A stretch of 64,000 nt of DNA from Candidatus Edwardsbacteria bacterium. GTDB taxonomy: Bacteria > Edwardsbacteria > AC1 > EtOH8. Below are positions 29,234 to 59,667 of the stretch, piece by piece. The position numbers and the translations under genes are program-made. The notes beneath the pieces were generated by a model, which did not search any database, had not been told where the DNA came from, and worked only from the letters and a program-made list of their open reading frames with translations. Where the stretch lies: positions 1 through 64,000 of the forward strand of contig JAHJLF010000072.1 in assembly GCA_018821925.1 (NCBI GenBank), in the 5' to 3' direction. Positions within the stretch are counted from its first letter, which is position 1. Each line of letters begins with the position of its first letter.

Positions 29234-30721
29234 ATGATCGAGAAGAGTATTTTTGAACTATCGGCGGCTGGGCGAAAAGGACACCCTTTGCCGGCCTGCG
29301 ATGTGCCCGTTAAGCCCTTGAACAAACTGATCCCCGAGAAATATATCAGAAGCGATCTGTCCGGCCTGCCCCAGGTCTCGGAGATAGATGTGATGCGCCA
29401 CTTCGTCAGGCTGTCCACTCTGAACCACCATGTGGACAAGGGTTTTTACCCGCTGGGCTCCTGCACCATGAAATACAATCCCAAGATTAACGAGGATATG
29501 TCCCGCTTGCCCGGCTTCACCGGACTGCATCCCTTGCAGGATGAGACAGACATACAGGGCGCGTTGAAGCTGATGAACGAACTGGGCGATCAATTGTGCC
29601 GGATCGCCGGGCTGGACGCCATCACTCTGCAGCCGGTGGCCGGGGCCCACGGCGAGCTGACCGCCCTGATGATGATCCGGGCCTATCACACCAAGAACGG
29701 AAATCCCCGCAGCAAGATACTGATCCCCGATTCGGCCCACGGCACCAACCCGGCCTCGGCCACCCTCTGCGGCTACCAGGCAGTCCAGATAAAATCCAAC
29801 GCCCAGGGGCTGTTGGATCCCGAGGATCTGAAAGCCCACCTGGACGGCGAGGTGGCGGCCCTGATGCTGACCAACCCCAACACCCTGGGACTGTTTGAGA
29901 AGAACATCTGCACCCTCACCAAGATGGTGCACGACATAGGCGGGCTGGTGTTCATGGATGGCGCCAACCTCAACGCCCTGATGGGCATCGTCCGGCCCGG
30001 CGACATGGGTATCGACGCCATGCACTTTAACCTGCACAAGACCTTCGCCACGCCCCACGGCGGCGGCGGCCCTGGCGGGGGCGGGGTGGCGGTCAAAAAG
30101 ATACTGGAGCCCTTCCTGCCGTCGCCGGTCATCAAGGGCCGGCAGGAGCCCCAGGAGAGCGAGAAGGGACTCAAGGGTGCAGAGTATTATCTTGACTACA
30201 ATCGTCCCGAAAGCATTGGGAAGGTTCACTCGTTTTTCGGAAACTTCCTGGTAATGGTCAAGGCCTACACTTACCTGCGGATGCTGGGGCCCGAAGGGGT
30301 CAGGGCCGTCTCGGAAAATGCCATCATCAATGCCAATTACATCATGCGGTCTTTAGAAGGCATTTATGATCTGCCCTACAAGGCCCACTGCAAACACGAA
30401 TGCGTCTTCTCCGGAGTCAAGTTCCGTGAGAAGGGCATCAAGACCCTGGATATCGCCAAGCGGCTGCTGGATTACGGCTATCACGCCCCGACCATATATT
30501 TCCCGCTGATCGTGCCCGAGGCCATCATGATCGAGCCCACCGAGACCGAGAGCAAGGAGACGCTGGATGCCTTCATCGACACTATGAAGAAGATAGCAGA
30601 AGAGATAGAGAAAACTCCCGAGATAGTGAAGAGTGCCCCCAACAATACGCCCATCGGCCGGCTGGACGACGTCAAGGCGGTGAAGGAGCCGAAGCTGACG
30701 TGGGGCGGCACCTGTGGTTGA
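29234..30721 (+). CDS. gcvPB: Glycine dehydrogenase (decarboxylating) subunit 2
   Basis: 495 residues, the normal length of the beta half of the split P-protein. KGFYPLGSCTMKYNPKIN, QPVAGAHGELTALMMIRAYH, DSAHGTNPASATLCGY and the PLP lysine in HFNLHKTFATPHGGGGPGGG (lysine near residue 269) are diagnostic. It decarboxylates glycine and hands the aminomethyl group to lipoylated H-protein. gcvPA, gcvH and gcvT are not in the window. A LipM-like lipoate-attachment gene occurs at 41411. AAAGGA precedes the ATG. Confidence 0.96.
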   Translation: MIEKSIFELSAAGRKGHPLPACDVPVKPLNKLIPEKYIRSDLSGLPQVSEIDVMRHFVRLSTLNHHVDKGFYPLGSCTMKYNPKINEDMSRLPGFTGLHPLQDETDIQGALKLMNELGDQLCRIAGLDAITLQPVAGAHGELTALMMIRAYHTKNGNPRSKILIPDSAHGTNPASATLCGYQAVQIKSNAQGLLDPEDLKAHLDGEVAALMLTNPNTLGLFEKNICTLTKMVHDIGGLVFMDGANLNALMGIVRPGDMGIDAMHFNLHKTFATPHGGGGPGGGGVAVKKILEPFLPSPVIKGRQEPQESEKGLKGAEYYLDYNRPESIGKVHSFFGNFLVMVKAYTYLRMLGPEGVRAVSENAIINANYIMRSLEGIYDLPYKAHCKHECVFSGVKFREKGIKTLDIAKRLLDYGYHAPTIYFPLIVPEAIMIEPTETESKETLDAFIDTMKKIAEEIEKTPEIVKSAPNNTPIGRLDDVKAVKEPKLTWGGTCG

Positions 30722-32387: not shown

Positions 32388-32786
32388 ATGACAAATTCCT
32401 CCATCTCCGATCTAGGCGAGGTCAGCCCGGAACGGGCCAAAGAACTGCTGGCCAAGATAGCCAACCAGGTGGTCAAACGAAAACTGTCGGTGCCGGCCAT
32501 CATGTTCATCGAGTCGGTAAAGCCATTGTCCTTTGTGGGCAGCCAGGTGCTGATCTTCATGCAGCCCATCGTTCAGGCCTTTTTTAACCGCAAGGAATAC
32601 GACGAATTCGCGGTGCTGATGGAGGATCGGGATAACGTGGAGCTGCTGCTGCAGGAGATCGAACGGCAGGAGGCCGAGTGGCAGGCCCGGGAGAAGGCGG
32701 AGAGAGTAGAAGCTAAGAAACAGAGAAAAGCGGAGGGCAAGAAGACCTGGTGGGAGACGATAAAAAATAAGTTTGGTATAAAGTAG
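32388..32786 (+). CDS. Hypothetical protein with charged C-terminal helix
   Basis: 132 residues. Residues 20-80 form a compact predicted helical region (AKELLAKIANQVVKRKLSVP, GSQVLIFMQPIVQAFFNRKE), and residues 85-125 are a highly charged likely coiled coil (EIERQEAEWQAREKAERVEA). No signal peptide; the short hydrophobic patch is marginal for a membrane anchor. I do not recognise the family. It stands alone between repeat-rich gaps upstream of the MutL-like gene; base composition is like the host. No Shine-Dalgarno seen. Confidence 0.7.
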   Translation: MTNSSISDLGEVSPERAKELLAKIANQVVKRKLSVPAIMFIESVKPLSFVGSQVLIFMQPIVQAFFNRKEYDEFAVLMEDRDNVELLLQEIERQEAEWQAREKAERVEAKKQRKAEGKKTWWETIKNKFGIK

Positions 32787-33016
32787 GAGCGAAAGGCCCT
32801 GCGCCCGAAACCGACCCCTCCCCGCCATTAGCAGGCAGTCCATATAGGCGGGCAGGCCTACCCTCTCCGATGCGGAGAGGGAAACGTGCTAAATAAAAAA
32901 TCTGTGTTTATCCGTGTCCAATTAGGTCCTTGGATTCCTGCCGTTGCAGGAATGACAGGTTAGCCGGTAAAAATAAAAACAAAACATAATCTATGTAACC
33001 CATTAGGAGACTCATA
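32787..33016 (+). repeat. Repeat-rich gap before the MutL-like gene
   Basis: Family A-like palindrome sequence at about 32804-32882 (CCCTCTCCGATGCGGAGAGG core) and a palindrome GGATTCCTGCCGTTGCAGGA followed by ATGAC at 32932-32956. AGGAGA before 33017 is the ribosome site of the next gene. Confidence 0.6.
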
Positions 33017-34837
33017 ATGGCAGTTGATCCCAACAAATTGAAAGTGATCCTGGTCACCGACTGCGGCAGCACCACCACTAAGGCGATCCTGATCGAATAC
33101 AAAAACGGCGAATACCGCCAGACCACCCGGGGCGAAGCGCCCACCACAGTGGAGAAGCCCTTTGAGGATGTGACCAAGGGGGTTCTCAACTCGGTGCGTG
33201 AGCTGGAGGAGCTATCGGGCCGCAAGATCCTCAACGGTGACGACATCATCACCCCGGCCGACGGCATGACCGGCGTGGATATCTATATGTCCACCTCCTC
33301 GGCCGGCGGCGGCCTGCAGATGATGGTGGCCGGAGTGGTCAAATCCATGACCGGCGAATCGGCCGCCCGGGCCGCCCTGGGAGCCGGGGCCATCGTGATG
33401 GACGTGCTGGCCTCCAACGACGGCCGCCTGCCGCACCAGCGGATCGAGCGGATCCGCCACCTGCGTCCGGACATGATCCTTCTGTCCGGCGGCATCGACG
33501 GCGGGACCATTACCCACGTGGCCGAGATGGCCGAGCTGATCGCCGCGGCCGACCCCAAGCCCCGCTTCGGCACCAGCTACCGCCTGCCGGTGATCTATGC
33601 CGGAAACAAGGACGCCCGGGAGATCATCACCAAGACCCTGGAGTCCAAGACCGCCCTGCTGATCAAGGACAACCTGCGGCCGGTGCTGGAGCGCGAGAAC
33701 CTGACCCCGGCCCGCGACGCCATTCACGACGTCTTCATGGAGCACGTAATGGCCCACGCCCCGGGATATAAAAAACTAATGGCCATGGCCCATGAGGTCC
33801 CCATTATGCCCACCCCCGGCGCGGTGGGGCTGATGATCCAATCCCTGGCCAAGGCCGAGCATATTGCCGCCGTGGGGGTCGACATCGGCGGGGCCACCAC
33901 CGATGTCTTCTCGGTGTTCTTCGACAAGGGGACCGACAGCGACGTCTTCAACCGCACCGTCTCGGCCAACCTGGGCATGAGCTACTCCATCTCCAACGTG
34001 CTGGCCGAGGCCGGCATCGCCAACATCATGCGCTGGGTGCCGTTCGAGATGGACGAGGCCGAGGTGCGGAACCGGATCCGCAACAAGATGATCCGGCCCA
34101 CCACCATCCCCCAGACCCAGGAGGAGCTGCAGATAGAGCAGGCCATCTCCCGCGAGGCCCTAAGGCTGGCCTTCGTCCAGCACAAGAGCATGGCGGTGGG
34201 GCTCAAGGGCGTCCAGCAGGAGCGGACCATCTCCGACGCCTTCGAACAGACCGGCTCGGGCGAGACCCTGATCAACATGATGGACCTGAAGATCCTGATC
34301 GGCTCCGGCGGGGTGCTGTCGCATGCCCCGCGCCGGGTGCAGTCGGCCCTGATGATGATCGACGCCTTCCAGCCCGAAGGCATTACCACCATGGCGGTGG
34401 ATTCCATCTTCATGGCCCCGCATCTGGGAATTTTATCAACCGTGCATGCCGCTGCCGCCAACGAGGTCTTTCTTAAAGATTGCCTGGTGCGCCTGGGCTC
34501 CTGCATCTGCCCCACCGGCCACGGCAAGGAGGGCCAGCCATGCCTTACCGTCAAGTTCGCTAAGGCCGACGGCACCAAGGTGGAGGAGAACATCAAAGTG
34601 GGACAGATGAAACATCTAATGCTGGAAGAGAACGTCAAGGCCATGGTGGTTCCGGCCAAGGGCTTCGATATCGGAGCCGGCAAGGGCAAGGAGATGGAGG
34701 TTGCTTTGGAGGGCGGGACAGTGGGGCTTATTATAGACGGCCGGGGCCGGCCGCTGGTCATCCCCGAGGACAAGAAGGAGAGGGTGCGCAAGCTAACCGA
34801 ATGGAACCAGGCCCTGGGGGTCTACCCTAGTAAGTAA
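33017..34837 (+). CDS. MutL/GlmL-family ASKHA ATPase-like protein
   Basis: 606 residues. The first phosphate-binding loop VTDCGSTTTKAILIE sits at residues 13-27, and a second, GVDIGGATTDVFSVF, near 288-302: the actin/Hsp70/sugar-kinase nucleotide site. The family is named after GlmL/MutL, found beside glutamate mutase and thought to act as chaperone or reactivase for it. No glutamate mutase genes occur here. Instead the next genes encode a barrel-sandwich protein and membrane proteins, so the protein may serve another machine. It is probably cotranscribed with the gene at 34921, 83 bases on. AGGAGA precedes the start. Confidence 0.8.
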   Translation: MAVDPNKLKVILVTDCGSTTTKAILIEYKNGEYRQTTRGEAPTTVEKPFEDVTKGVLNSVRELEELSGRKILNGDDIITPADGMTGVDIYMSTSSAGGGLQMMVAGVVKSMTGESAARAALGAGAIVMDVLASNDGRLPHQRIERIRHLRPDMILLSGGIDGGTITHVAEMAELIAAADPKPRFGTSYRLPVIYAGNKDAREIITKTLESKTALLIKDNLRPVLERENLTPARDAIHDVFMEHVMAHAPGYKKLMAMAHEVPIMPTPGAVGLMIQSLAKAEHIAAVGVDIGGATTDVFSVFFDKGTDSDVFNRTVSANLGMSYSISNVLAEAGIANIMRWVPFEMDEAEVRNRIRNKMIRPTTIPQTQEELQIEQAISREALRLAFVQHKSMAVGLKGVQQERTISDAFEQTGSGETLINMMDLKILIGSGGVLSHAPRRVQSALMMIDAFQPEGITTMAVDSIFMAPHLGILSTVHAAAANEVFLKDCLVRLGSCICPTGHGKEGQPCLTVKFAKADGTKVEENIKVGQMKHLMLEENVKAMVVPAKGFDIGAGKGKEMEVALEGGTVGLIIDGRGRPLVIPEDKKERVRKLTEWNQALGVYPSK

Positions 34838-34920
34838 AAAGTTTAAAGTTCAAAGCTTAAAGCTTTTTGTCATTTAAATTAGCAAACAGGAAACCAGAAA
34901 TTCAAAACAGGAAATATACG

Positions 34921-36042
34921 ATGGCACATGCATATACTCCGGGACTGAAGGTAACCGAGAAGACCCTGATCAAAAAAGACCGCCGCCTTCCCCTGAAAGG
35001 CCAGGTGATCGTCAAGAAGGGCGACAAGGTAGGCTCCGACCAGATAGTAGCCAGGACCGAACTGCCGGGCAACGTCCAGCCGGTCAACGTCTCCGGCCTT
35101 TTGGGTCTGCTGGCCGAGGACGTGCCCTCCCACATGCTCAAAAAGATCGGCGACCCGGTGGCCAAGGATGAGACCATCGCCGAGAGCAAGGGATTCTTCG
35201 GGCTGTTCAAGAGCAGCTGCAAAGCCCCGGTGGCCGGGACCCTGGAGTCCGTCTCCAGCATCACCGGGCAGGTGATCCTGCGGGAGCCCCCCATGCCGGT
35301 CCAGATCAAGGCCTACATTGACGGGCAGGTGACCGAGGTCAGCGAGGCCGAGGGGGCCACCGTGGAGGCTTTCGGCAGTTTCATCCAGGGCATCTTCGGA
35401 GTGGGCGGGGAGACCAACGGCGAGATCAAGGTGGTGGCGGCTGATCCCTCCCAGGAGCTGACCATCGAGATGCTGACCCCCGATTGCCAGGGCAAGGTGG
35501 TGGTGGGCGGCTCGCTGATCAAATACGACGCCCTGAAGAAGGCGGCCGAGGTAAGAGTCAAAGCGGTGGTGGTGGGCGGCATTGACGACGCCGATCTGAA
35601 GAAACTGATGGGATACGACATCGGGGTGGCCATCACCGGACATGAGGATGTGGGGCTGACCCTGGTGGTCACCGAGGGCTTCGGCCAGATGAGCATGGCT
35701 GGCAAGACCTTCAAACTTCTGAAGTCCAAAGAGGGGCTAAAGGCCTCGGTCAACGGGGCCACCCAGATCCGGGCCGGCGTGATGCGTCCCGAAGTGATCA
35801 TTCCGCTAAGCAGCCAGGATGTCGGCAGCGAGGCCGTCAAGGAGGCCGGCGGTATGGAGATCGGTAGCGCCATCCGGGTGATCCGCCAGCCCTACTTCGG
35901 CAAGATCGGCAAGGTGTCGGCCCTGCCCCACGAGCTGCAGCAATTGGAATCCGAAAGCCACGCCCGGGTGCTGGAGGTAACTTTCGAGGACGGCGCCAAG
36001 GCGGTGGTCCCCCGGGCCAATGTGGAGCTGATCGAAGACTGA
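34921..36042 (+). CDS. Barrel-sandwich / KOW-like protein partner of MutL-like ATPase
   Basis: 373 residues from ATG 34921, the first ATG in frame, with AGGAAA upstream. Residues 1-150 contain two biotinyl/RnfC-like barrel-sandwich strand patterns (PLKGQVIVKKGDKVGSDQIV and CKAPVAGTLESVSSITGQVI). The middle (GKVVVGGSLIKYDALKKAAE, KAVVVGGIDDADLKKLMGYD) looks like an alpha/beta domain. The C-terminus has IRVIRQPYFGKIGKVSALPH and VLEVTFEDGAKAVVPRANVE, close in pattern to a KOW motif. No signal peptide or membrane segment, so presumably cytoplasmic. Function unknown; the stable pairing with the ASKHA protein suggests a shared complex. Confidence 0.68.
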   Translation: MAHAYTPGLKVTEKTLIKKDRRLPLKGQVIVKKGDKVGSDQIVARTELPGNVQPVNVSGLLGLLAEDVPSHMLKKIGDPVAKDETIAESKGFFGLFKSSCKAPVAGTLESVSSITGQVILREPPMPVQIKAYIDGQVTEVSEAEGATVEAFGSFIQGIFGVGGETNGEIKVVAADPSQELTIEMLTPDCQGKVVVGGSLIKYDALKKAAEVRVKAVVVGGIDDADLKKLMGYDIGVAITGHEDVGLTLVVTEGFGQMSMAGKTFKLLKSKEGLKASVNGATQIRAGVMRPEVIIPLSSQDVGSEAVKEAGGMEIGSAIRVIRQPYFGKIGKVSALPHELQQLESESHARVLEVTFEDGAKAVVPRANVELIED

Positions 36043-36073
36043 TCCGGCTTGATCAGATAAAATTACAATAATG

Positions 36074-36117
36074 AAATCATGTCCGGGGAGATTTACATCG
36101 AACCGGGCATGATTTTT
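36074..36117 (+). terminator. Hairpin with T-run after the barrel-sandwich gene
   Basis: AAATCATGTCCGG (36074-36086) pairs with CCGGGCATGATTT (36103-36115), one G-T pair, loop of 16 bases, then TTTTT overlapping. It would separate the 33017-36042 pair from the membrane genes, at least partly. Confidence 0.65.
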
Positions 36118-36143
36118 CAACCATCATCAGACGAGGGGCCGAT

Positions 36144-37328
36144 ATGCAATTAAAAATCACGATATTGACATTATTGGTGCTGTCCGCCGGGCCATCCTTC
36201 TCAGAAGCTGTTTCCGCTTATGATCCGCCTCCCCAAAATTTTTATGTGGAAAATATAAAAGCGGAGGATGTTCCCAATGATGCCGGGGGTGAACTCAAGG
36301 TAAGCTGGACCCTGCCGGCCGACCAGGGTCCGGAGATATTGGTGCTGCGATTACTGAGGGCCGAGATCCCGGAAGGTCCGTTCTCCCAGATCATCGAAAT
36401 GGCTCCCGGGATCAGCGAGTATTCGGACCAGGGACTGGCTAACGGGAAAAAATATTTTTACCGGATAGATGCGGTCACCGATGCCGGGGTGTTTCCTTCC
36501 CGGGTCAGCGATCCGGCGGTTCCTCGGGCTTCATGGTTCAACTCCCAGCGGGTCAGCCTGCTGATAGCTTTGGCCCTCTTTACCGGATTGGTGCTGTTCT
36601 TCATCTGGCGGGCCAGAAAGGGAGACTCGCTGTTCGTCAGGAAGATAACCGGGCTGTCGGCGGTGGACGAGGCCATCGGCCGGGCCACCGAGATGGGGCG
36701 CCCCATCCTGTATCTGCCATCGGGAGGGCTGTCGGCGGTGTCCGACATCCAGACCCTGGCCAGTCTGGTGATACTGGGCCAGGTGGCCGAGAAGGCCGCC
36801 GAGTATGAGACCCCACTGCTGGTGCCCTGTTCCGATCCCTTGGTGATGACCCTGGCTCAGGAGATCGTCAAGGCCAGCTACATGAACGCCGGACGCCCCG
36901 ACGCCTACCGGGCCGAGAATATCCGCTATTTGACCAACGAGCAGTTCGCCTATACCGCCGGAGTTGACGGCATCATGATTCGTGAGAAACCGGCGGCCAA
37001 TTTCATGATCGGCACTTTTTACGCCGAATCCCTGATCCTGGCCGAGACCGGCTATGCCACCGGGGCCATCCAGATCGCCGGCACCGCCATGATCACCCAG
37101 CTGCCGTTCTTCGTGGCGGCCTGCGATTACACTCTTATCGGCGAGGAGATCTACGCCGCCTCGGCCTACCTGTCAAAGGAGCCGGTGCTGATGGGCACCA
37201 TCAAGGCCCAGGACTGGGGCAAGGCCATCGCCATCGGACTGATTATCATAGGGGTAATCATGGAGACCCTGGCCCTGAAATATCCCCGGCTTCACTTTTT
37301 CGTCAGCCAATGGCTGTCATCGCAGTAA
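36144..37328 (+). CDS. FN3 plus DUF6754-like membrane protein
   Basis: 394 residues. Signal peptide (about residues 1-22), then a fibronectin type III-like domain (about 30-130: LKVSWTLPADQGPEILVLRL, YSDQGLANGKKYFYRIDAVT), a membrane segment (about 135-153, VSLLIALALFTGLVLFFIW), a cytoplasmic alpha/beta domain (about 165-360: VDEAIGRATEMGRPILYLPS, ASLVILGQVAEKAAEYETPL, YAESLILAETGYATGAIQIA) and a last membrane segment (IAIGLIIIGVIMETLALKY). The cytoplasmic part resembles what is called DUF6754; this name is from memory and not checked. Function unknown. It heads a run of membrane-protein genes. Confidence 0.7.
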   Translation: MQLKITILTLLVLSAGPSFSEAVSAYDPPPQNFYVENIKAEDVPNDAGGELKVSWTLPADQGPEILVLRLLRAEIPEGPFSQIIEMAPGISEYSDQGLANGKKYFYRIDAVTDAGVFPSRVSDPAVPRASWFNSQRVSLLIALALFTGLVLFFIWRARKGDSLFVRKITGLSAVDEAIGRATEMGRPILYLPSGGLSAVSDIQTLASLVILGQVAEKAAEYETPLLVPCSDPLVMTLAQEIVKASYMNAGRPDAYRAENIRYLTNEQFAYTAGVDGIMIREKPAANFMIGTFYAESLILAETGYATGAIQIAGTAMITQLPFFVAACDYTLIGEEIYAASAYLSKEPVLMGTIKAQDWGKAIAIGLIIIGVIMETLALKYPRLHFFVSQWLSSQ

Positions 37329-37341
37329 GGAGATCACAAAA

Positions 37342-38003
37342 ATGAAAAAAACACTGCCTTTGATAATTACCTTCCTGGCCGGCTTCTACATGATACTGGC
37401 TTTCTTTGTGCCGCACAAGGCCATCGCGGTGTCGGCCCAGGAGATGCAGTCCTGGGAGATCATCATCGTGGCCTTCACTCTGGTGCTGGGCATCGGCAAC
37501 CTGATCCAGGTGCACGCCGTGAAGATCCACCGCCAAAAAAGCGGCTGGTATTACAGCGTGGTGCTGCTGATCTGCCTGGGGGCCATGATGGTGATCGGGC
37601 TGTTCTGGGGCATCAATGAGGGCACGGTCTACTACTGGCTCTACGATAACGTAATGGCGCCCTTATCGGCCGCCATGTTCTCGTTGCTGGCCTTCTTCAT
37701 CGCCTCGGCCGCCTACCGGCTTTTCGGGCCCGTAACAAAGAGGCCACCCTGCTGCTGGTGGCCGCCACCATCATCATGATCGGACGGGTGCCGCTGGGCA
37801 ACGTGATCTGGCAGCACCTTCCCTGGCTGGGGGCCAAATTTCCCAATGCCCTGGAAGTGCTGACCCAGTGGATAATGGACATCCCCAACGCCGCCGGCCA
37901 GCGGGGCATCAAAATCGGGGCGGCCCTGGGCGCGGTGTCCATGGCCCTGCGGATGCTGTTGGGCATCGAACGGTCATACCTGACCACCGGGGGAGGAAAT
38001 TAA
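37342..38003 (+). CDS. Polytopic membrane protein, split by a one-base frameshift
   Basis: Two overlapping frames make one protein. Frame 1 (from ATG 37342) encodes hydrophobic segments (TLPLIITFLAGFYMILAFFV, IVAFTLVLGIGNLIQVHAVK, VVLLICLGAMMVIGLFWGI, AMFSLLAFFIASAAYR) and then turns into a Pro/Cys/Trp-rich nonsense tail. Frame 2 continues with FRARNKEATLLLVAATIIMI, then GLGAV-like membrane segments to LTTGGGN. One missing G near 37717-37720 (TACCGGCTTTT) accounts for the change; with it the product is about 220 residues with six or so membrane segments. Sequencing error, recent pseudogene or frameshifting are all possible. It lies between the DUF6754-like gene and another membrane gene. Confidence 0.72.
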
Positions 38004-38004
38004 G

Positions 38005-38847
38005 ATGAGATTCAAGGAAACGATGGCCAAGCTCACCCAGCTGGACCGCCGCTGGATATTCCTGGCCATGGGCCTGGTGGTGGCCGCGGCCCTGCTGGTG
38101 GACCTGAAGATGCCGGTGACCGTCTCCCAGGACGTGCGCCGGGCCTACAACCTGATCGACAGCCTGCCGGCCGGGACTCCGGTGCTTTTCTCCTGGGATT
38201 ACGACCCCGGCTCGATGCCCGAACTGTATCCCCTGTCCGATGCCATGCTGCGTCATGCCATGCGCAAGGACCTGAAGGTGGTGATGATGGGGCACTGGGT
38301 CACCGGCATTCCGCTTATCGAAAAACAGATCGCCGAGGTCATCCGGAAGGATTTTCCCGACAAGGTCTACGGCACCGACTACGTCAATCTGGGCTACAAA
38401 TCCGGCCAATATGTGGTGGTGGTCTCCATGGCCCAGAACATCTACGACGCCTTTCCCCAGGATTATTACCGCAACCGGACCGACACCCTGCCGCTGATGA
38501 AAAAAGTGAGGTCGCTTAAAAACGTGGCCGCCATCGTGTCTTTCTCGGCCGGCGACCCCGGCCTGCTGATGTGGATCCAGTTCGCCTGGCAGCGCTTCCG
38601 GGTCCCGGTCACCGGCGGCTGCACCGCGGTGTCGGCCCCGGAGTTCTCGGCCTACCTGCAGTCCAACCAGCTGCAGGGCCTGATGGGAGGCATGCGGGGG
38701 GCGGCCGAATACGAGATGCTGATCGGTCGTTCGGCCAAGGCCACCACCGGGATGTCGGCCCAGAGCCTGGGACATTTCCTGATCATCGCCTTCATCATCA
38801 TCGGCAACATCGCCTATTTTGCCACCCGCAAGAAGGAGGAGAAATAA
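38005..38847 (+). CDS. Hypothetical membrane-anchored protein of the DUF6754 cluster
   Basis: 280 residues with one N-terminal membrane segment (RRWIFLAMGLVVAAALLVDL) and one C-terminal (LGHFLIIAFIIIGNIAYFA), and a large soluble domain between: GTPVLFSWDYDPGSMPELYP, LSDAMLRHAMRKDLKVVMMG, VTGGCTAVSAPEFSAYLQSN. By topology that domain would lie outside the cytoplasm. No known family recognised. The start follows the previous stop by one base and GGGGGAGG lies in the end of that gene. Likely part of the same membrane complex. Confidence 0.68.
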   Translation: MRFKETMAKLTQLDRRWIFLAMGLVVAAALLVDLKMPVTVSQDVRRAYNLIDSLPAGTPVLFSWDYDPGSMPELYPLSDAMLRHAMRKDLKVVMMGHWVTGIPLIEKQIAEVIRKDFPDKVYGTDYVNLGYKSGQYVVVVSMAQNIYDAFPQDYYRNRTDTLPLMKKVRSLKNVAAIVSFSAGDPGLLMWIQFAWQRFRVPVTGGCTAVSAPEFSAYLQSNQLQGLMGGMRGAAEYEMLIGRSAKATTGMSAQSLGHFLIIAFIIIGNIAYFATRKKEEK

Positions 38848-38848
38848 C

Positions 38849-39454
38849 ATGGCAGTATTCGGAACCTGGCTGGCGGCGCTGCTGGTGCTGTGCATCTACA
38901 GCTTTTTATACAAGGACAACCCGCTTTATAAATTCGCCGAGCATGTCTACGTGGGGATCTCGGCCGGTTATTTCGTGGCGGCCGAATACCACAATGTGGT
39001 GCTGCCCAACCTGCTGACGCCCCTGTACCGCGACTTCGCCCACAAGTTCTACCTGATCATCCCCGGGCTGCTGGGGCTGCTGATATTCTTTGCCTTCTCC
39101 CGCAAACTCAACTGGCTGATAAGATTTCCCCTGTCCTTCGTGGTGGGCATCGGGGCCGGCCTTACCGTGATGGCCTTTCTGTCGGCCGATGTCCTGGCCC
39201 AGGTGCAGGCCACCGCCATCCCGTTGAATTCGGTCAACAACATTCTGTTTGTGGGCGGGGTGCTGACCACCCTGGTTTACTTCTTCTTCTCGGCCCAGCA
39301 CAAGGGATTCGTGGGCGGAACCGCCCAGGTGGGGGTGTGGTACCTGATGATCGCCTTCGGGGCGGCCTTCGGCTACACCGTGATGGCCAGGATATCCCTG
39401 CTGATAGGGCAGATGCAATTTCTGCTGGGAAACTGGCTGCATATCCTGAAATAA
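38849..39454 (+). CDS. Polytopic membrane protein of the DUF6754 cluster
   Basis: 201 residues from ATG 38849, with GGAGG nine bases upstream and one base after the previous stop. About six membrane segments (FGTWLAALLVLCIYSFLY, YVGISAGYFVAAEYHNVVL, LIIPGLLGLLIFFAFS, FPLSFVVGIGAGLTVMAFLS, ILFVGGVLTTLVYFFFSA, VWYLMIAFGAAFGYTVMAR). No family recognised. Tight spacing on both sides suggests an obligatory partner of the neighbouring membrane proteins. Confidence 0.7.
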   Translation: MAVFGTWLAALLVLCIYSFLYKDNPLYKFAEHVYVGISAGYFVAAEYHNVVLPNLLTPLYRDFAHKFYLIIPGLLGLLIFFAFSRKLNWLIRFPLSFVVGIGAGLTVMAFLSADVLAQVQATAIPLNSVNNILFVGGVLTTLVYFFFSAQHKGFVGGTAQVGVWYLMIAFGAAFGYTVMARISLLIGQMQFLLGNWLHILK

Positions 39455-39474
39455 AAATATTTTACTCTTGCCGG

Positions 39475-41406
39475 ATGCTAAAATTGGACAATAAATCATA
39501 CACCAATAAATGGAAGCCGATAATCATTGGAGTATTATTTTTACTCATATGGTTCGGGGCTTCTTTTTTTAACGGGCGCTTTACCTGGGGGTTTGATTAC
39601 CTGCAGTATTACCCGCTGTGGTTCCGGCTGGGCTGGGTCCTGGCGGGGATGTCGGCGCTTTTATCGCTTGGCTTTTGGGTCCCGGGACTTCTCATAATAA
39701 ATGACAGATTTGAAAACCGGAAACTCTGGAACCTGGTTCTGCTGGTAGCTGTCATGGGCGGGCTTTTCTGGCTACTGCGCCAGGCCATCCCCCTGCTGGG
39801 CGACGGCTTCCTGCGGGTCCGGGAGATCACCGGCGGCCGGATATTCTCCCTGACCGAACCGCTGACCACCATGGTCCACGGCCTGCTGTTCAATATCCTG
39901 TCCGGGAATGTCAGCGATGCCCCGGCCGCGACCCGGGCCTATGTTGTGATCAGCATTCTGTCCGGCCTGGCGATGGTTTGGCTCTATCACAGGATATCCA
40001 CCCGGTGGTTTGAGAACAGCTATTGGCTTGCCACTGCCCTGCTGCTGGGTTTGGGCTTCAACCAAATATTCTTCGGCTACGTGGAGAGCTACGCTCCTTT
40101 TATGCTGGCGGTCCTGGCCTTCGCCTGGCTGGGCGCCCGGTCCCTGGAGGACGAAGGAGGGGCCCTGCCCCTGGTGCTTTTATTCGGGCTGATCGTGGCC
40201 CTGCATGCCAAGGGGATCTTCCTGCTGCCGGCCTTGGTCTATCTGCTGGCGGCCAAGTGGCCGGAGGTCCGGCAGAGATTGTGGTGGGTTGTTCCTCTGT
40301 CGGCGGCCCTGCCGCTGGCGGTGGTGCTGGCCGGCAGGTGGCTCTCGCCAGATATTCACTGGGAGGCCTCGCTGGGCGAGATCCCCAAAAATCCACTACT
40401 GCCGCTGTGGGACGGAATGCGGGGCTATGGCATCCTTTCCCCCGGGCACTGGATGGACATCTTGAATCAATACCTGCTGACCATCCCCGGAATCATCTTT
40501 TTATTCTCGGCGTTGCTGATTGAACGGGCCAGGGTCAAGCTGGATCGGACAATTATCTTTTTGTCACTACTGGCCATCAGCGGGCTGGCCTTCATCGTCA
40601 TCACTGACCCCAAGCTGGGGGCCGCCCGGGATTGGGACCTGTTTGCCTGGGTGGGCATTCCGGCGGCGGTGTTGGGGCTGCATCTGATGAAGCAAAAGGA
40701 AAATAATAAAAAGATTTTGATGGTTGGCGGGTTTCTGTCTTTATGGCTTCTCCTACCCTGGGTGTTGCTGAATGCCAGTCTGGATCTGTCGATTGAACGA
40801 TATCTGAAAATATTGGGGCAGGATGAAAAATCATCGGCCTACGGCTACGAAAATCTGGCGATATATTACCGTCAGGCCAAGTTAAAGGACAAAGCCGAAT
40901 GGGCCTATAAGCAGGCGGTGGAGAACGCCCCCCACAATCCCCGGATGCTGTACAACTACGGGACCATCCTGGTTCAGAACAGCCGGCCGACCGAGGGGGC
41001 CGAATATTTTAAAAGGGCCCTGGTCCTGAATCCCAACGTTTACTTCTACTGGAACGATTACGGAAGCGTTATGCTGAGGCTGGGGCAGTATCCTCTGGCC
41101 CGGGAGGCTCTGGAGCGCTCGGTGCGGCTGAATGATTCCAGCCCCGATGCCTGGTACAACCTGGGTATTGCCTGTTCGATTCAGCAGGAATGGGCCAGGG
41201 CCGATACCGCTTTTTTGCGGGCGGCCGCTAACGGCTTTAGCGGAGACTGGATTTATGCCTACTGGGGCGAGGTCCAGCTCAACCTGGGGCAGTATCCGTC
41301 AGCCGTTAAAAATCTGAAACAAGCCATTGATGCCGGAATAACCGACAGCCTTACCATCGATTCTTATCATAAGGCCCGGGCCGGAATGGAAGCGGGAATG
41401 AAATAA
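39475..41406 (+). CDS. Membrane protein with C-terminal TPR domain
   Basis: 643 residues from ATG 39475, 20 bases after the previous stop. About ten to twelve membrane segments fill residues 15-450, with loops such as ITGGRIFSLTEPLTTMVHGL and ITDPKLGAARDWDLFAWVGI. Four to five TPR units follow from about residue 460 (YKQAVENAPHNPRMLYNYGT, YFKRALVLNPNVYFYWNDYG, ALERSVRLNDSSPDAWYNLG). The layout resembles GT-C-like membrane enzymes with periplasmic TPRs, but no catalytic motif was recognised. It sits at the end of the membrane cluster and immediately before lipM. Confidence 0.7.
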   Translation: MLKLDNKSYTNKWKPIIIGVLFLLIWFGASFFNGRFTWGFDYLQYYPLWFRLGWVLAGMSALLSLGFWVPGLLIINDRFENRKLWNLVLLVAVMGGLFWLLRQAIPLLGDGFLRVREITGGRIFSLTEPLTTMVHGLLFNILSGNVSDAPAATRAYVVISILSGLAMVWLYHRISTRWFENSYWLATALLLGLGFNQIFFGYVESYAPFMLAVLAFAWLGARSLEDEGGALPLVLLFGLIVALHAKGIFLLPALVYLLAAKWPEVRQRLWWVVPLSAALPLAVVLAGRWLSPDIHWEASLGEIPKNPLLPLWDGMRGYGILSPGHWMDILNQYLLTIPGIIFLFSALLIERARVKLDRTIIFLSLLAISGLAFIVITDPKLGAARDWDLFAWVGIPAAVLGLHLMKQKENNKKILMVGGFLSLWLLLPWVLLNASLDLSIERYLKILGQDEKSSAYGYENLAIYYRQAKLKDKAEWAYKQAVENAPHNPRMLYNYGTILVQNSRPTEGAEYFKRALVLNPNVYFYWNDYGSVMLRLGQYPLAREALERSVRLNDSSPDAWYNLGIACSIQQEWARADTAFLRAAANGFSGDWIYAYWGEVQLNLGQYPSAVKNLKQAIDAGITDSLTIDSYHKARAGMEAGMK

Positions 41407-41410: not shown

Positions 41411-42187
41411 ATGAGCACGGAAAAAACAAGCTGGCGGTTTCTCAATACCGGCCTGGGCGACGGGGCCTATAACATGGCGCTGGATCAGGCCCTGGTGGAG
41501 TCGGTGGGATCCGGCGCCTCGCTGCCCGTGATCCGGTTCTTCGGGTGGAACCCGCCGGCGGTATCCCTGGGGTACAATCAAAAAATAAAAGACCTGGATA
41601 TCGAAGCCTGCCGCAAGGCCGGCTTTGACATAGTCCGCCGGCCCACCGGGGGCCGGGCGGTGATCCATCAGGACGAATTCACCTACAGCGTCATCGCCCG
41701 GGAGAACGATCCGGTGATCGGCGGGACCATCATGGAGACCTACGGCCGGATCGCCCAGGGCCTTTTGGCGGGCCTGAAAATATTGGGGGTGGCTGCCGAG
41801 ATGGTAAGATCTTCGGCCCCCGATATTCCGGCCACGGCTTCGGCCCTGTGCTTTGCCGCCGCCGGGCGTTACGAGATAACCGCCGGAGGCAAAAAACTCA
41901 TCGGCAGCGCCCAGCGCCGGATGAACGGCGTCATCCTCCAGCAAGGCTCGCTGCTGATGACCTGCGGGCAGGAGCATAAATTTTTCAGCCGGGATCCTAT
42001 GGAGAACCGGGCGGGAACCCTAAGGGAGATCCTGGGGCGGGAGCCGGCTTTCGATGAGGTGGCGGCCGGCATGGAGCAGGGGTTTATGAAGTCTTGGAAT
42101 ATAGAACTGGCGCCTGACTCCCTGACCCAGGACGAGGAAAATACCGCCGGAAGATTAAAACCAGGGCTGATATTTGTCGAAGGATAA
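41411..42187 (+). CDS. lipM: Lipoate/octanoate transferase, LipM type
   Basis: 258 residues. FLNTGLGDGAYNMALDQAL at the start, DIVRRPTGGRAVIHQDEFTY (the RRxTGGxAVxH lipoyl-AMP/octanoyl site), SALCFAAAGRYEITAGGKKL with the candidate catalytic cysteine, and IGSAQRRMNGVILQQGSLLM are all typical of LipM/LplA-like proteins. It would attach octanoate or lipoate to carrier domains such as GcvH, tying in with gcvPB at 29234. Four bases separate it from the preceding stop. A lipoate ligase is the alternative. Confidence 0.85.
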   Translation: MSTEKTSWRFLNTGLGDGAYNMALDQALVESVGSGASLPVIRFFGWNPPAVSLGYNQKIKDLDIEACRKAGFDIVRRPTGGRAVIHQDEFTYSVIARENDPVIGGTIMETYGRIAQGLLAGLKILGVAAEMVRSSAPDIPATASALCFAAAGRYEITAGGKKLIGSAQRRMNGVILQQGSLLMTCGQEHKFFSRDPMENRAGTLREILGREPAFDEVAAGMEQGFMKSWNIELAPDSLTQDEENTAGRLKPGLIFVEG

Positions 42188-46645: not shown

Positions 46646-48751
46646 ATGAAAAAAGGTTTATTGTTATTTGTAGCCGTTTTTGCCTGCTTTGCTTTGACAG
46701 CCTATGCTGCTCCCACCCATCAGGGAATTCCCATTGAGGGCGGCACTACGACAGCGGTCAAGGCAGCTCCCGGCAAGGCCCCGGTAGGCGCCGTTGCCAT
46801 CGGTCCCATGGGCTATGCCGATTCCTGGAGGACCATCGCGGCCGCCCAGGGCAAGAGCATCATCTCCAACGCCGCCGGCACCGACATCCAGGTGCTCTAT
46901 GGCACATACAGCGGCTCGGCCGGAAACCCCTCCAACCTGACCTGGGGCTATTCCGACAACAGCGGGGCCACCTGGAACAACCAGACCATAGTCTCCAACC
47001 GCAACTCCCGGACCTACTCCGGGCTGGCGGTGGACGCCAATTTCACCCCCTACATCGTCTGGCAGGATCGGATCGTCTCCGCTGGCTGGCCCATCTGCCT
47101 GACCTTTGACGAGGGCGGATACACGGCCGGGCTGTGGAGCACCGCCGTCAACCTGACCGACTCCGGCTTCATGTACCTGCCTGGCATGGCCATTCAGGAC
47201 GACGGGGCCGGCAATTTCAACCTGTTCGTTGACGCTTTTCCGCACAGCGCCTTCGGCGGCAATGCCACCCTGCACATGGCCCACAACAAGGCGGCCGACC
47301 TGAGCGCCTGGACCGCCCCCTGGGATTTAAGCGGCTCATGGGGCTGGAAGCCCTGGATGGTTGCTCCCTGGTGGGACGACCAGGATGCGGCCGACTTCAC
47401 CATATCCCCCAGCGGCGATACAATAGTGGCCTTCTGGGAGCAGTGCGAAGACACCATAGTGGGGAACTACCGCCCGGTCTATTCCATCTCCACCGATAAC
47501 GGCGGCACCTGGAGCGCCCCGGCCTTCTTCAATATGGCCGGCACCGACGCCAACGGGCATCCCTATCAGTACACCACCGGCGGCTGGTGGTACCGTTTCG
47601 ACGGCGCCTGGATTGGCGACAAACCATACTTCCTGTACTGCCATAACGCCGGGGTGTGGAATGGGAACGCCCTGTTCATCTATTTCCCGACCGTGGCCGG
47701 CGACTACAGCGCCTGGACCGGGGTGCGCATCTCCGAGATCCCGGGCAACCTGGCCGGGCTGAACGACGGCGACCTGGTGGGTTCCTATGCCGATTACAGC
47801 ACCCTGTCCTATGACGCGGCCGGCAATATCTTTGCCACCTACGTGGGCATGTCCCAGGGGTCCAACGCCTTCGCGGACATCATCGGGGTGGCCTCCACCG
47901 ACGGCGGCAACACCTGGCTGCAGCATGTCTACCTGACCAACGACGGCGCCACCTATGACTACAGCTTCGTGGAAGCGGCCGAGTATGCCGGCGGCGGCAA
48001 TATGCATATCCTGGCCCCGCCTGCTATCATGGACAGCTTGTATTACCTGACTGTTCCCACCGCCACCCTGCTGGCAGCCCCTGCCAGGCCGCGGGAGATC
48101 GACCTTCCCAACCTGCTGTGCGGCTCTGCCGAAGGCGGCGTGGGCGGCCCGATCGATGCGGTGATGGATACCGTCAACAACGACACCATGTATTACTTCT
48201 GGTCTCCGATGATAGGCCTGAACGGCCAATATGAGGTGACCATCTCCAAGACCGCCGACTGGTCGGCCGACAACTACGACCTGGCCTCCCTGCTGGACGT
48301 CAACTACATCCTGGGCGTGGTCGGCATGCCAGAGGCCGGCGTGGTATGGTATTACAAGGTTCGTTCACACTTCGGCGGGGAGACCTCCCCCTGGAGCGCG
48401 GTGTATGACTTCTTCTACAACGGCACCGCCACCAACGTGGTTGACTGGCAGACCCCGTCGGGCATCACCGGCAAGCCGGTCACTGTCACTCAGCCCTTCG
48501 TGCTGAACCAGAACCGGCCCAACCCGGTTAACAACGACACCAAGATATCCTTCAACCTGCCCAAGGCTGGCGAGTACACCCTTAAGGTTTACAACGTGGC
48601 CGGACAGGTGGTCAACAACATCAGCGGACGCGGCCAGGCTGGCAACAACACCGTCAGCTGGAGCAGCCGGAATGTTTCCAACGGCGTCTACTTCTATCAA
48701 TTGAACGCCGCCGGCAGCACCGCCACCAAGAAGATGATCGTAGTCAAGTAA
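46646..48751 (+). CDS. Secreted Asp-box (BNR/sialidase-like) protein with T9SS-like tail
   Basis: 701 residues. Signal peptide residues 1-21 (KKGLLLFVAVFACFALTAYA). Three Asp-boxes are visible: YSDNSGATWN (near 102), ISTDNGGTWSAP (near 282) and ASTDGGNTWLQ (near 418), so a beta propeller of the BNR type is expected. The tail has LNQNRPNPVNNDTKISFNLP, KVYNVAGQVV and ends ATKKMIVVK, a T9SS type A-like domain. No sialidase catalytic Arg/Tyr triad was established, so enzyme activity is not claimed. Likely a surface or released protein. Confidence 0.82.
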   Translation: MKKGLLLFVAVFACFALTAYAAPTHQGIPIEGGTTTAVKAAPGKAPVGAVAIGPMGYADSWRTIAAAQGKSIISNAAGTDIQVLYGTYSGSAGNPSNLTWGYSDNSGATWNNQTIVSNRNSRTYSGLAVDANFTPYIVWQDRIVSAGWPICLTFDEGGYTAGLWSTAVNLTDSGFMYLPGMAIQDDGAGNFNLFVDAFPHSAFGGNATLHMAHNKAADLSAWTAPWDLSGSWGWKPWMVAPWWDDQDAADFTISPSGDTIVAFWEQCEDTIVGNYRPVYSISTDNGGTWSAPAFFNMAGTDANGHPYQYTTGGWWYRFDGAWIGDKPYFLYCHNAGVWNGNALFIYFPTVAGDYSAWTGVRISEIPGNLAGLNDGDLVGSYADYSTLSYDAAGNIFATYVGMSQGSNAFADIIGVASTDGGNTWLQHVYLTNDGATYDYSFVEAAEYAGGGNMHILAPPAIMDSLYYLTVPTATLLAAPARPREIDLPNLLCGSAEGGVGGPIDAVMDTVNNDTMYYFWSPMIGLNGQYEVTISKTADWSADNYDLASLLDVNYILGVVGMPEAGVVWYYKVRSHFGGETSPWSAVYDFFYNGTATNVVDWQTPSGITGKPVTVTQPFVLNQNRPNPVNNDTKISFNLPKAGEYTLKVYNVAGQVVNNISGRGQAGNNTVSWSSRNVSNGVYFYQLNAAGSTATKKMIVVK

Positions 48752-48762
48752 AACCCATGTTT

Positions 48763-48792
48763 AAGTTGGCGGGGCTTTTGCCCCGCCAACTT
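48763..48792 (+). terminator. Rho-independent terminator
   Basis: Perfect thirteen-base-pair stem AAGTTGGCGGGGC / GCCCCGCCAACTT with a TTTT loop and following TT, 11 bases after the stop. Confidence 0.88.
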
Positions 48793-49245
48793 TTAGGCAA
48801 AATGTTTGCCTAAAATTAAGCTACCTGCCGCGTAAATTAGCATAGTGCGTCATAAGTTCCACTACTTTGATTGTTGATTTAAACCCCGTCGCTCGAGGCG
48901 GGGAGATTCCTTGTCATTCGCTCCAACGGCGCATTTCGTTTCATACTATCACTTACCGATGAGCTCAACCGGGCTTGACCCGGAATCCAGGTATTTCCGG
49001 CCGGTAATGGCCGGATCCGAAGATGCCAACCGACGCTTTAGGGCCGAAAAGCCTTAAAACGATAAGCCATAAATAGAACCCAATCCTGCTTTAAATAAAA
49101 CAAAATATAAAATAAAAAAATAAATGAGGAGGTGAAAGTTCGGAAAATATCCTTGTTAAACGGGAATAGGTTAAGCAGTCATTTATACCCCAAGGATTAA
49201 GCAAGAATAAAGCAACAACCATTTTCTGGAGGTAAATTAGAAGTT
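48793..49245 (+). promoter_or_regulatory. Leader region of the first TonB receptor
   Basis: About 450 bases without a gene. It contains palindromic repeat pieces (CCCCGTCGCTCGAGGCGGGG near 48893; CCGGAATCCAGGTATTTCCGG and GGCCGGTAATGGCC near 48980-49015), then A+T-rich sequence. GAGGAGGTGA at 49126-49135 lies 111 bases before the start, echoing the same motif ahead of the gene at 46646. The gene's own GGAGGT is at 49228-49233. Confidence 0.5.
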
Positions 49246-52200
49246 ATGAAAACTCTAAAGATCTTAGTTGCAGTCACGGTCTGCATGGTAATGGCAGGAG
49301 GTTTGTTGTTTGCCGGCACCACCGGAAAGATCGTCGGAACTGTGACGGACTCCGAGACCAAAGAACCGATTCCCGGCGCAGTAGTGGAGCTGCTGGGGAC
49401 CACCATCGGCGCCAATACCGATATGGACGGGCGGTACTTCATAGTCAACGTTCCGGTGGGAACATTCTCCCTGAGGGCCAGGATGATGGGCTATGAGACG
49501 GTGACCATCACCAATGTCAAATCCATCATGGATTTGACAACCACCATCAACTTTAAAATTAAGCCCACCGTGATATTAAGCGAGGGCATCACCGTGACCG
49601 CCCAACGGCAGATGGTCATCCCCGATGCCACCTCCACCTCCCGGGTGGTTTCAACCAAAGAAATAATGGCCATGCCCAACGCCAGCGCCAATAACGTCAT
49701 CGGCAATACCGCCGGGGTGGTCAGCTCCGGAGGCCAGATGAACGTCCGGGGCGGCCGGTCCGATGAAATGGCGATTTTTGTGGACGGCGTTTCGGTGACC
49801 GATGCCCTGACCGGTGCCATGGGCTCCCAGATCAACACTGCGGCCATCGAGGAAGTGATGGTCATCACCGGCGGCTTCAATGCCGAATACGGCGAGGCCA
49901 TGTCCGGGGTGGTCAACGTGGTCACCAAGGAGGGCGGAGATAAGCTAAGCGTATACGGCCGGTTCACCACCGACATGCACATGCTCTCCGATAGCCGCAA
50001 CAACAACAAGGTGGAACTGAGCCTGGGCGGCCCGGCGCCCTACGCCAAGAACCTGGGCTACTTCCTGTCCGGCGAGGTCGGCAACACCGACGATTACCGC
50101 CCGGTCTTCATGCCCGATAAATATTACGAACACGATCCCACCAAGGATTACTTCTGGGCCGATACCATACAGTACAGCAGGGCCGAGTGGGATCCCGCCG
50201 ACAGCGTGGGGCTGATAGGCTGGAAAGGCGATTGGGCCGATTCCAGCGTTTCGGACTGGGATGCCGAGAAGGCCCGCCGGATTGCCCTGGGCTATCAACG
50301 GGGCTGGAAGGAGTACGACGAGAACTATCTGCCCCACAACGACTATAACAGCTATCGCCTGCAGGGCAAGGTGACCTATAAGATCCCGGCCTGGCAGGCC
50401 AAGATCACCCTGGGAGGCTTTGCCAACCGCGATCAGCGGGGCAGCTACACCGCCTCCTTCAAATACTGGTTGGACAGCTATTATTCATATCTGCAGAAAT
50501 CCTACCAGGGCAATGCCAGCTGGCGCCATCAGGTAAGCAGGAACACCTTCTATAATATAACCGTCAACAAATTCTCCACCAGAACCCAGACCGGGGTGCG
50601 CGACACCACCGTCGAGAAGGACCGCAGCTGGTGGGAGGACTATACGTTTCTGAGCGATGCCGATGCCGACGGCGACAGCATGTACGACGCCTACGAGGGC
50701 CAGGCCTATGCCTATGGCATTGATAACCCCTACGGGGTCTCCGGGATCTTCTATACCTTCGGGCTGGCCCGGCTATGGGAGACAACCAAGGCCGAGTATA
50801 TCGGAGGCAAGATCGATGTCACCTCCCAGGTGAACAGATTCAACCAGATGGTGGGAGGCTTGGAGGTAAAACAGCACCATGTCATCCTGAAAAGCAACTC
50901 GCTTCCCTGGGATCCGGTGCCTTTTAAGGATTATTATGATTTCAAGCCCATCACCGGGGCGGCCTATATTCAGGACAAGCTGGAGTTTCAGGGCTTCATC
51001 GTCAATGCCGGCCTACGGCTGGACCTGCTGATGCCCGAATCCCAGAAGAAGCTGAACAATTTCAACCTGACCGACACCGCTTCCTATATAGATGCCGAGA
51101 CCAAGTATAAACTAAGCCCCCGGCTGGGCATCTCCCACCCGGTGTCCGACCGGACCGTAATGCACATCAGCTACGGGCACTTCTTCCAGCAGCCCCAGCT
51201 GCAGTATCTGTACGAATCCCTAAGCGCCAATATTGCCCGGGGCAATACCGTGATGGGAGACCCCGACCTGGGGGCCCAGCGCACCATTGCCTACGAGATA
51301 GGCTTCAACCAGCAGTTAACCAATGATATGGCCGGAGATATTACCGTCTATTATAAGGACATCTTCGACCTGCTGGGCACCCGGATGTTGCAGGACACCA
51401 TTACCGGGCTGAACTATACCTCGTTCTTGAACACGGAATACGGCAATGTTCGGGGTTTTGAGGCCACCCTCAACAAGCGGGCCTCGGCCAACGGTATCTT
51501 CTCCGGCAAGCTGGCCTACTCCCTGATGCTGGCCAAGGGCACTGCCTCCGATCCCTGGGAAGGCTATCTCAACTATATTTACGGGGGCGGGACCGACCCG
51601 GCCACCGGACTGCCGGTGCCCTTCCCCAAGAGCGACGCCTTTTTGGAATACGACCAGCGCCATACCTTCTCGGTATCCACCAACTTTGACTTCGGCGAAA
51701 AATTCGGACCGGCCATCGCCGGCTTCAAACCGCTGGCCAACCTATCCATCAGCCTGCTGAACAACATCGGCAGCGGCATGCCCTATACCATCGTCAACTC
51801 CAAGGGGGTCCAGATCGGCGGGGTCAACGAGGGCCGGATGCCCTGGACCCTCAACACCGACCTGTTGCTTAGCCGCTCGCTGACGGTGGCCGGGATAAAG
51901 ATGTCCATAGATTTCGAGGTTCTGAATCTTTTAAACCGCAAGAATGTCGCCAACGTCTTTGCCGTAACCGGAAACCCGCTGAACGATGGCAGCATCATCA
52001 CCCTCGGCGATTTTACAACCTCTGCCATCCCCTGCAGCGTTTCATATACGGTGGACGGGGCGGGCGACCCGGTGTATGTGCCCAATCCCTATTACAGCAA
52101 GTGGCGGGATATCAACGGGGACGGGGAAGTAGACCAATACGAGAAGTACGTTTCCTACGTGGCGGCCTGGGACGACTATATCACCGACCCCTTCACCGCC

Positions 52201-55555: not shown

Positions 55556-55573
55556 AATGACAAGGAGTAAAAA

Positions 55574-59656: not shown

Positions 59657-59667
59657 GGAGCCGACAG

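Follow-up and report, generated by a model that had tools for sequence, protein, structure and literature searches.

A MutL-like ASKHA protein, its barrel-sandwich partner and a four-gene membrane cassette: a candidate two-part system in Edwardsbacteria and other phyla

What does a member of the 'glutamate mutase L' family do beside a run of membrane protein genes? The question is raised by a locus in a 64,000-nucleotide stretch of DNA from a Candidatus Edwardsbacteria bacterium (GenBank assembly GCA_018821925.1, contig JAHJLF010000072.1, positions 1 to 64,000), which is called the window here and comes from contig C72 of a genome of 2.44 Mb in 95 contigs. An earlier note on this DNA had proposed that six of its genes specify an undescribed membrane machine: those for a MutL-like ASKHA protein (MutL), a soluble barrel-sandwich protein (BSH) and four membrane proteins (DUF6754, TM4, M280 and M201, together called the quartet). 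Comparison with other genomes reveals the quartet as a conserved cassette that is separable from MutL and BSH, and MutL, BSH and the quartet are likely to constitute one functional system.

Layout of the locus

The open reading frames (ORFs) and Pfam matches place all six genes where the earlier note had put them, and add a seventh, h132, which it had overlooked. The seven genes are consecutive on the + strand from 32388 to 39454 (TM, transmembrane):

32388..32786, + strand: h132, small cytoplasmic protein upstream of MutL (top Pfam E-value 0.03)
33017..34837, + strand: MutL-like ASKHA protein, 606 amino acids (PF13941, E 3.1e-125, 418.9 bits against a cut-off of 27)
34921..36042, + strand: BSH, barrel-sandwich/KOW-like soluble protein, 373 amino acids (homologue alignment; sub-threshold RnfC_N and Biotin_lipoyl)
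36073..36116, + strand: terminator-like hairpin between BSH and the quartet (fold -22.9 kcal/mol, z -5.1)
36144..37328, + strand: DUF6754 protein (PF20539, E 2.8e-117, 390.8 bits against a cut-off of 27)
37342..38003, + strand: TM4, polytopic membrane protein with about six TM helices (58 homologues), split by a one-base deletion
38005..38847, + strand: M280, predicted TM helix, extracytoplasmic Rossmann-like domain and TM helix (model and flanking charge; no Pfam family)
38849..39454, + strand: M201, polytopic membrane protein with six to seven TM helices (53 aligned sequences, hydrophobic windows)

The gaps within the quartet are 13, 1 and 1 bases, and 101 bases separate BSH from DUF6754. 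The four consecutive membrane genes with gaps of 1-13 bases that had been described therefore stand as to spacing, but TM4 is not a single open frame. Its ORFs, 37342-37779 and 37758-38003, jointly match an intact orthologue of 220 amino acids (locus L034, 11073-11735), and alignment to this orthologue shows one base to be missing from a G run near 37716, which is either an assembly error or a genuine frameshift. The start of BSH is taken as the ATG at 34921 that is common to its homologues; the mechanical ORF begins at a TTG at 34867. The hairpin, first noticed at 36074, has a 14-pair outer stem followed by a U run, and none of 200 shuffles folded as well; it is not in the output of a consensus terminator scan with a loop limit of 8. 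A search of 32780-39600 against Rfam gave no match, the two TM4 fragments, M280 and M201 of the window have no Pfam family above cut-off, and a search of viral contigs found no relative.

The quartet as a conserved cassette

A profile scan of genome contigs with the DUF6754 alignment yielded at least 586 stretches, 523 of them confirmed, and the best 80 of these (loci L042-L121) were analyzed in detail; the distribution is thus partial and leans to close relatives. Even so, the titles of these 80 loci name about eleven phyla: Edwardsbacteria, Stahlbacteria/WOR-3, Latescibacterota, Zixiibacteriota, Coatesbacteria, Fermentibacteria/Aegiribacteria, Poribacteria, Cloacimonadota, Eisenbacteria, Gemmatimonadota and TA06. 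Profiles made from the window proteins detected 108 full-length DUF6754 copies. Eleven of these were set aside, having an incomplete set with less than 2600 bases of locus remaining. TM4, M280 and M201 follow in that order and on the same strand after 93 of the 97 testable copies, in a count that tolerates up to 900 bases between neighbors as well as overlapping frames and that uses profiles made from the same loci. Four copies break the pattern, in L051, L079, L109 and L114, and in L114 a masked stretch intervenes. Clustering of the quartet genes is far above chance, as the earlier note had expected of genuine partners.

Quartets also multiply within genomes. Tandem triples occur in L055, L067, L098 and L119, and genomes of the window's own phylum carry 2-5 DUF6754 copies each. 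No fusion inside the quartet was seen among the loci inspected. In Cloacimonadota (L195-L204), DUF6754 frames of about 920-1150 amino acids were considered as quartet fusions and rejected: they carry a greatly enlarged external region instead, and separate TM4, M280 and M201 genes mostly follow where the stretch reaches. In L201 and L204, an additional DUF6754 may come after M201 without a quartet of its own. A long frame in L114 merely crossed the masked stretch, and second 'DUF6754' matches in L076 and L085 proved to be FN3 or cut frames rather than full members.

MutL and BSH as companions of the quartet

Co-occurrence was assessed in 50 genomes, chosen for phylum spread from 75 loci and containing DUF6754 by construction, and in ten genomes of the own phylum; one genome is shared (G041 is G005), giving a union of 59. 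BSH is matched in 49 of the 50, with E under 1e-140 in 45 and weaker or partial matches in G010, G038, G042 and G043. MutL is above cut-off in 48 of the 50. All ten own-phylum genomes have MutL, BSH and DUF6754, and DUF6754 is present in 5/5 genomes of the phylum of G052.

In the best 80 loci, 19 of 21 BSH genes end 4-222 bases ahead of DUF6754, and the remaining two (L103 and L115) come after MutL at 759 and 803 bases. The small h132 gene is upstream of 12 of the 16 MutL copies in these loci, with one of the other four at the locus start. By eye, a gene for a protein of 240-257 amino acids with a signal-like N-terminus intervenes between MutL and BSH in four loci (L050, 15813-16553; L059, 15692-16414; L103, 1726-2499; L115, 6827-7597).

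MutL and BSH are also found as a single frame of 847-1091 amino acids in 11 of 11 regions that were fetched because a long frame had been seen. These regions come from Fermentibacteria/Aegiribacteria, Cloacimonadota, Zixiibacteriota, Eisenbacteria and WOR-3 genomes, and in L196 a further fused gene lies immediately ahead of a complete quartet. Three aligned fusions are 37-44% identical to the window MutL and keep BSH up to a TQIRAG stretch; unfused MutL proteins of other phyla are 62-68% identical to that of the window. The fused proteins are divergent paralogues. In L176 and L182 (Cloacimonadota), a fused gene adjoins permease-like and LysM-like genes (by eye) in a stretch without a quartet.

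MutL and glutamate mutase

The window MutL shares with the GlmL/MutL protein of glutamate mutase the ASKHA family, the nucleotide stretches and a full-length match to PF13941. GlmL is described in a passage of PMC4682846 as a reactivating chaperone of glutamate mutase. One alternative is that MutL and BSH are a GlmL-like reactivase of a cobalamin mutase, with the adjacency of the membrane genes incidental, and membership of PF13941 speaks for this. However, the window protein differs from GlmL in its length of 606 amino acids, in an additional C-terminal region beyond the Pfam match, which ends at residue 489, and in its score, which lies below the GlmL equivalog NF040745 (226.6 vs 475 bits) and also below the TIGR01319 subfamily (158.5 vs 204.05 bits). 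It differs further in its coupling (in the paralogues, fusion) to BSH, and in the genomes that carry it.

Glutamate mutase E (PF06368) is above cut-off in none of the ten own-phylum genomes and in none of the 50 others (59 in total), in agreement with the claim that glutamate mutase genes are absent; sub-threshold partial hits occur in three genomes of each set. B12-binding proteins, on the other hand, are present in 10/10 own-phylum genomes, with a short form of 129-153 amino acids in eight, and this favors a mutase client. In G000 and G001, the short protein is close to a weak Met_asp_mut_E-like (PF06368-like) frame, which is probably methylmalonyl-CoA mutase. Against such a client, G006 has MutL, and its sole B12-domain frames are of 1157 and 472 amino acids; in addition, BSH directly precedes DUF6754 in 19/21 cases. 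Another cobalamin client of MutL is thus unlikely, and the reactivase reading as a whole is distinctly improbable.

The sequence stretches DxGSTTTK and DxGGATTD, which we take to be the ASKHA phosphate-1 and phosphate-2 stretches, are invariant in 15 of 15 aligned MutL proteins, three of them fused paralogues. The MutL sequence gave no match to solved structures at E up to 0.01.

BSH and the Rnf/Nqr hint

The barrel-sandwich protein had been likened to RnfC-type subunits, and the system might in principle be an Rnf/Nqr-like complex for electron transfer or ion pumping, in which BSH would be the RnfC/NqrA-like subunit. Residues 71-115 of the window BSH do resemble RnfC_N weakly (22.9 bits vs a cut-off of 25.6), and among 17 BSH proteins there are weak matches to RnfC_N in nine, to Biotin_lipoyl in nine, to KOW in three and to NQRA_N in one. 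The location of Edwardsbacteria quartets between ferredoxin-like and flavoprotein genes (see below) would also fit. However, the window BSH stays under the Pfam cut-offs for both RnfC_N and Biotin_lipoyl, and the invariant and near-invariant columns of the 17 aligned proteins contain no cysteine. The quartet has no Fe-S or flavin family, no Rnf/Nqr partner is found among the scanned neighbors, and TM4 compares with NqrD at chance level (E 0.01; 15.6 vs 235 bits, scored on just the 5' part of the split gene). The RnfC hint therefore fails, and an electron-transfer complex of this kind is very improbable. The 16 homologues of the window BSH are 52-95% identical to it, those from other phyla 52-61%, and the BSH profile against solved structures returned just four rows, at E 0.12-0.39.

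Topology and conservation of the quartet

The DUF6754 model (pLDDT 88.1) has a signal peptide, an FN3 domain, a TM helix at 134-158, an alpha/beta domain and a second TM helix at 347-377. The FN3 domain is predicted to be outside and the alpha/beta domain cytosolic, because the charge flanking TM1 is stronger after the helix (positive in 80/80, mean 3.95) than before it. The M280 model (pLDDT 95.9) consists of an alpha/beta domain between two TM helices; this domain is predicted to be extracytoplasmic because both ends of the protein are positive (before TM1 in 57/61, after TM2 in 78/80). Models and flanking charge thus agree with the proposal that two of the proteins expose soluble domains outside the cytoplasm. 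By eye, the two models have the same helix/strand order between their TM helices. TM4 has six hydrophobic windows (58 homologues) and M201 seven.

The closest structural match of M280 is 1kjn (MT0777; Z 10.2, rmsd 3.1, 138/152 residues, 7% identity), with other Rossmann-like folds about one unit lower at Z 9.0; MT0777 differs from M280 in being a 152-residue chain without the flanking TM helices. Foldseek returned weak, mostly Rossmann-like rows for M280. For the DUF6754 model, matches in Foldseek and VIA were filled by FN3, so that they barely probe the fold of the cytosolic domain, and the DUF6754 profile against solved structures likewise found FN3 proteins only. Profiles of M280, TM4 and M201 gave no match to solved structures at E up to 1.

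The cytosolic domain of DUF6754 is the most conserved region of the quartet that was measured. Its mean majority identity is 0.735, a value inflated by the search for the loci, which used patterns of this very domain, and the other values are 0.449 for its FN3 domain, 0.55 for the M280 domain, 0.60 for TM4 and 0.61 for M201. Invariant positions of DUF6754 include R166, R180, E183, Q267, R280, E295, E301, D328, E334 and E335.

This architecture invites comparison with an ATP-energized or ATP-gated transporter, in which TM4 and M201 would form the path, M280 and FN3 would be outer receptors, and MutL-BSH would act as motor or gate. Two conserved polytopic subunits, external domains and a cytosolic ASKHA protein are what such a transporter would contain; several paralogous quartets per genome would suit transporters with differing substrates. 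The lower conservation of the external parts, compared with the cytosolic domain, also speaks for it. On the other side, the TM4 and M201 profiles match no solved structure, neither protein (TM4 being scanned as two fragments) has a transporter Pfam family above cut-off, and the own phylum has one MutL-BSH pair for several quartets. We also know of no transporter driven by an ASKHA protein. A transporter is the nearest rival to the reading preferred below, and on balance unlikely.

Exchange of quartets and their genomic neighbors

The six genes had been regarded as one unit. They do cluster, but as two separable modules, MutL-BSH (sometimes fused), to which h132 belongs, and the quartet. In the own phylum, a quartet directly follows BSH in four of ten genomes (G000, G001, G003 and G004), and in G000, G001 and G003 a TPR gene follows the quartet. 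The same TPR gene comes after BSH in G002, G006, G007 and G008, where the quartet is absent; G005 and G009 have no quartet within 5.5 and 14.5 kb after BSH, respectively.

Other quartets have other partners. One lies immediately 3' of the C-subunit gene of an A/V-type ATPase operon in 9/10 own-phylum genomes (it was not found in G008). An A-subunit-type gene is downstream in six of these nine stretches (L033, L036, L040 and L211-L213), and the other three end within 3.7 kb. The quartet proteins of the window (TM4 as two fragments) match no A/V-type ATPase family in Pfam or NCBIfam. Two or three tandem quartets are found between ferredoxin-like/Pyr_redox and DAO genes in the own phylum. The nearest NCBIfam families of these redox enzymes are sarcosine oxidase subunits and glycine oxidase, below cut-offs. 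A comparable redox pair is about 3.5 kb from a quartet in L200 (Cloacimonadota), and another is divergent, beside a lone DUF6754, in L109.

In a 28-row tree, the DUF6754 proteins of the G006 and G007 ATPase operons group with the type that neighbors MutL (support 100/99) rather than with the ATPase type found in G000, G001, G002 and G009. Eight of 36 rows had been dropped for an absent expected motif (seven from the own phylum, including the MutL neighbor in L016, and one outgroup), and the tree leaves the ATPase-operon copies of G003, G004 and G005 unplaced. The TM4, M280 and M201 proteins of the G006/G007 ATPase operons are 75-82% identical to those of the window; those of the ATPase-type quartet of G000 are merely 40-48% identical. 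Whole quartets have been gained, lost and exchanged as units.

A bolder interpretation would make the quartet a novel, general device for coupling energy at the membrane: its four proteins would be an interchangeable module with corresponding alpha/beta domains on the two membrane faces, and different cytosolic partners, namely the ASKHA switch MutL-BSH, a rotary A/V-ATPase and a flavoprotein dehydrogenase, would drive or regulate it. This seems quite unlikely.

More distant neighbors are mixed. A glycine dehydrogenase P gene (29234-30721) lies upstream of h132-MutL in the window and recurs there in several phyla (L056, L064, L065, L070, L076, L085, L092, L099 and L107); glycine cleavage P genes lie at most 4 kb upstream of nine of the 16 MutL copies. 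A lipoate ligase gene is downstream in the window at 41411-42187.

Between 42285 and 46146, the window quartet is followed by DUF4388, roadblock-like and two small membrane genes, and genes related to the DUF4388 and roadblock-like ones recur 3' of quartets in WOR-3/Stahlbacteria loci. These neighbors would suit a cytosol-to-surface signaling or scaffold complex with no ATP turnover. MutL would then be structural, as are the ASKHA proteins of the PilM type, but the ASKHA phosphate stretches are invariant and make this decidedly improbable.

At 46646-60903, the window encodes a Type IX sorting-domain protein, two TonB-dependent receptors, a PorV homologue and a PEGA protein. In WOR-3/Stahlbacteria and Fermentibacteria loci, quartets have genes for ExbB, ExbD, ExbD, TonB and a TonB-dependent receptor on their downstream side. 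The quartet might accordingly be part of an envelope machine for energy transduction or secretion that cooperates with TonB/ExbBD or with type IX secretion, and the receptors, PorV homologue and sorting-domain protein within about 20 kb in the window would agree with that. Such neighbor groups cover just 11-13 loci, however, others (such as L061 and L084) not having been picked up, and no quartet protein matches ExbB/TolQ. A machine of this kind is improbable. Farther away in the window (9263-15160), two adjacent long proteins have similar N-terminal 'NPVTNKIYV' repeats by eye.

A two-part model

The reading that we prefer, tentatively, is a two-part machine. Its first part would be the cytosolic pair of MutL, as a nucleotide switch of the ASKHA fold, and BSH, as a barrel-sandwich/KOW adaptor, together with the small h132. 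The second would be the membrane quartet, in which TM4 and M201 are polytopic and the soluble alpha/beta domains of DUF6754 and M280, each flanked by two TM helices, would lie on opposite membrane faces. MutL-BSH would be a GlmL-like, ATP-driven chaperone or remodeling switch with its client in the membrane: it would dock via BSH on the conserved cytosolic domain of DUF6754 and then assemble, open or reset the quartet. The quartet itself would be a swappable platform beside different enzymes, such as the A/V-type ATPase and the sarcosine-oxidase-like flavoenzymes.

Fusion and adjacency suggest that MutL and BSH work as one, conservation makes the cytosolic face of DUF6754 the likely dock, and the ASKHA stretches point to nucleotide binding by MutL. 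These considerations lead us to prefer a switch acting on the quartet to the transporter. The components may also form one physical complex, as their spacing had suggested to the earlier note. The chaperone or remodeling mechanism in particular is an analogy with GlmL and is rather doubtful.

Several observations weigh against this model. G028 and G055 have no MutL above cut-off, and G050 has no BSH match. MutL-BSH has no adjacent quartet in six of the ten own-phylum genomes, BSH has no adjacent MutL in L186, L187, L188 and L191, and in the window a hairpin lies between BSH and the quartet. Most fusions are in genomes that also have separate MutL and BSH, and as divergent paralogues they therefore bear on the window pair only indirectly. 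In Cloacimonadota, sampled regardless of DUF6754, both DUF6754 and BSH (E up to 0.001) are found in 114 of 117 genomes; three lack DUF6754, three others lack BSH and none lacks both. With two genes that are almost always present and never missing together, this set hardly tests dependence and indicates near-universality. The mixed neighbors are compatible with several functions. As to the quartet itself, a positive, though weaker, charge also precedes DUF6754 TM1 (66/80, mean 1.25), and the conservation of its cytosolic domain is inflated as noted. DUF6754 and M280 were considered as inverted homologues and TM4 and M201 as homologues, but neither pair stood up: there was no profile match for the first with whole or trimmed alignments, and profile comparison was negative for the second.

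Novelty and significance

The window DUF6754 gene is a clear member of PF20539, a Pfam entry that consists of a domain name only. In the open-licence literature, the name DUF6754 was found in no paper, no paper was found on MT0777 or DUF1890, and no description of the MutL-BSH/quartet system was found, which bears out the view of it as undescribed. The quartet proteins have no assigned function in the libraries searched, and their conserved domains have no solved-structure relative by sequence. Within the scope of these searches, the cassette of four genes and its partner MutL-BSH make up a new gene system; the biochemistry may prove familiar.

In whole phyla whose bacteria are mostly uncultured, the system is near-universal, usually with several DUF6754 copies per genome, and such strong conservation suggests a core cell function. 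Within the 'glutamate mutase L' family, the finding would also set one branch apart from glutamate mutase, with BSH as its partner.

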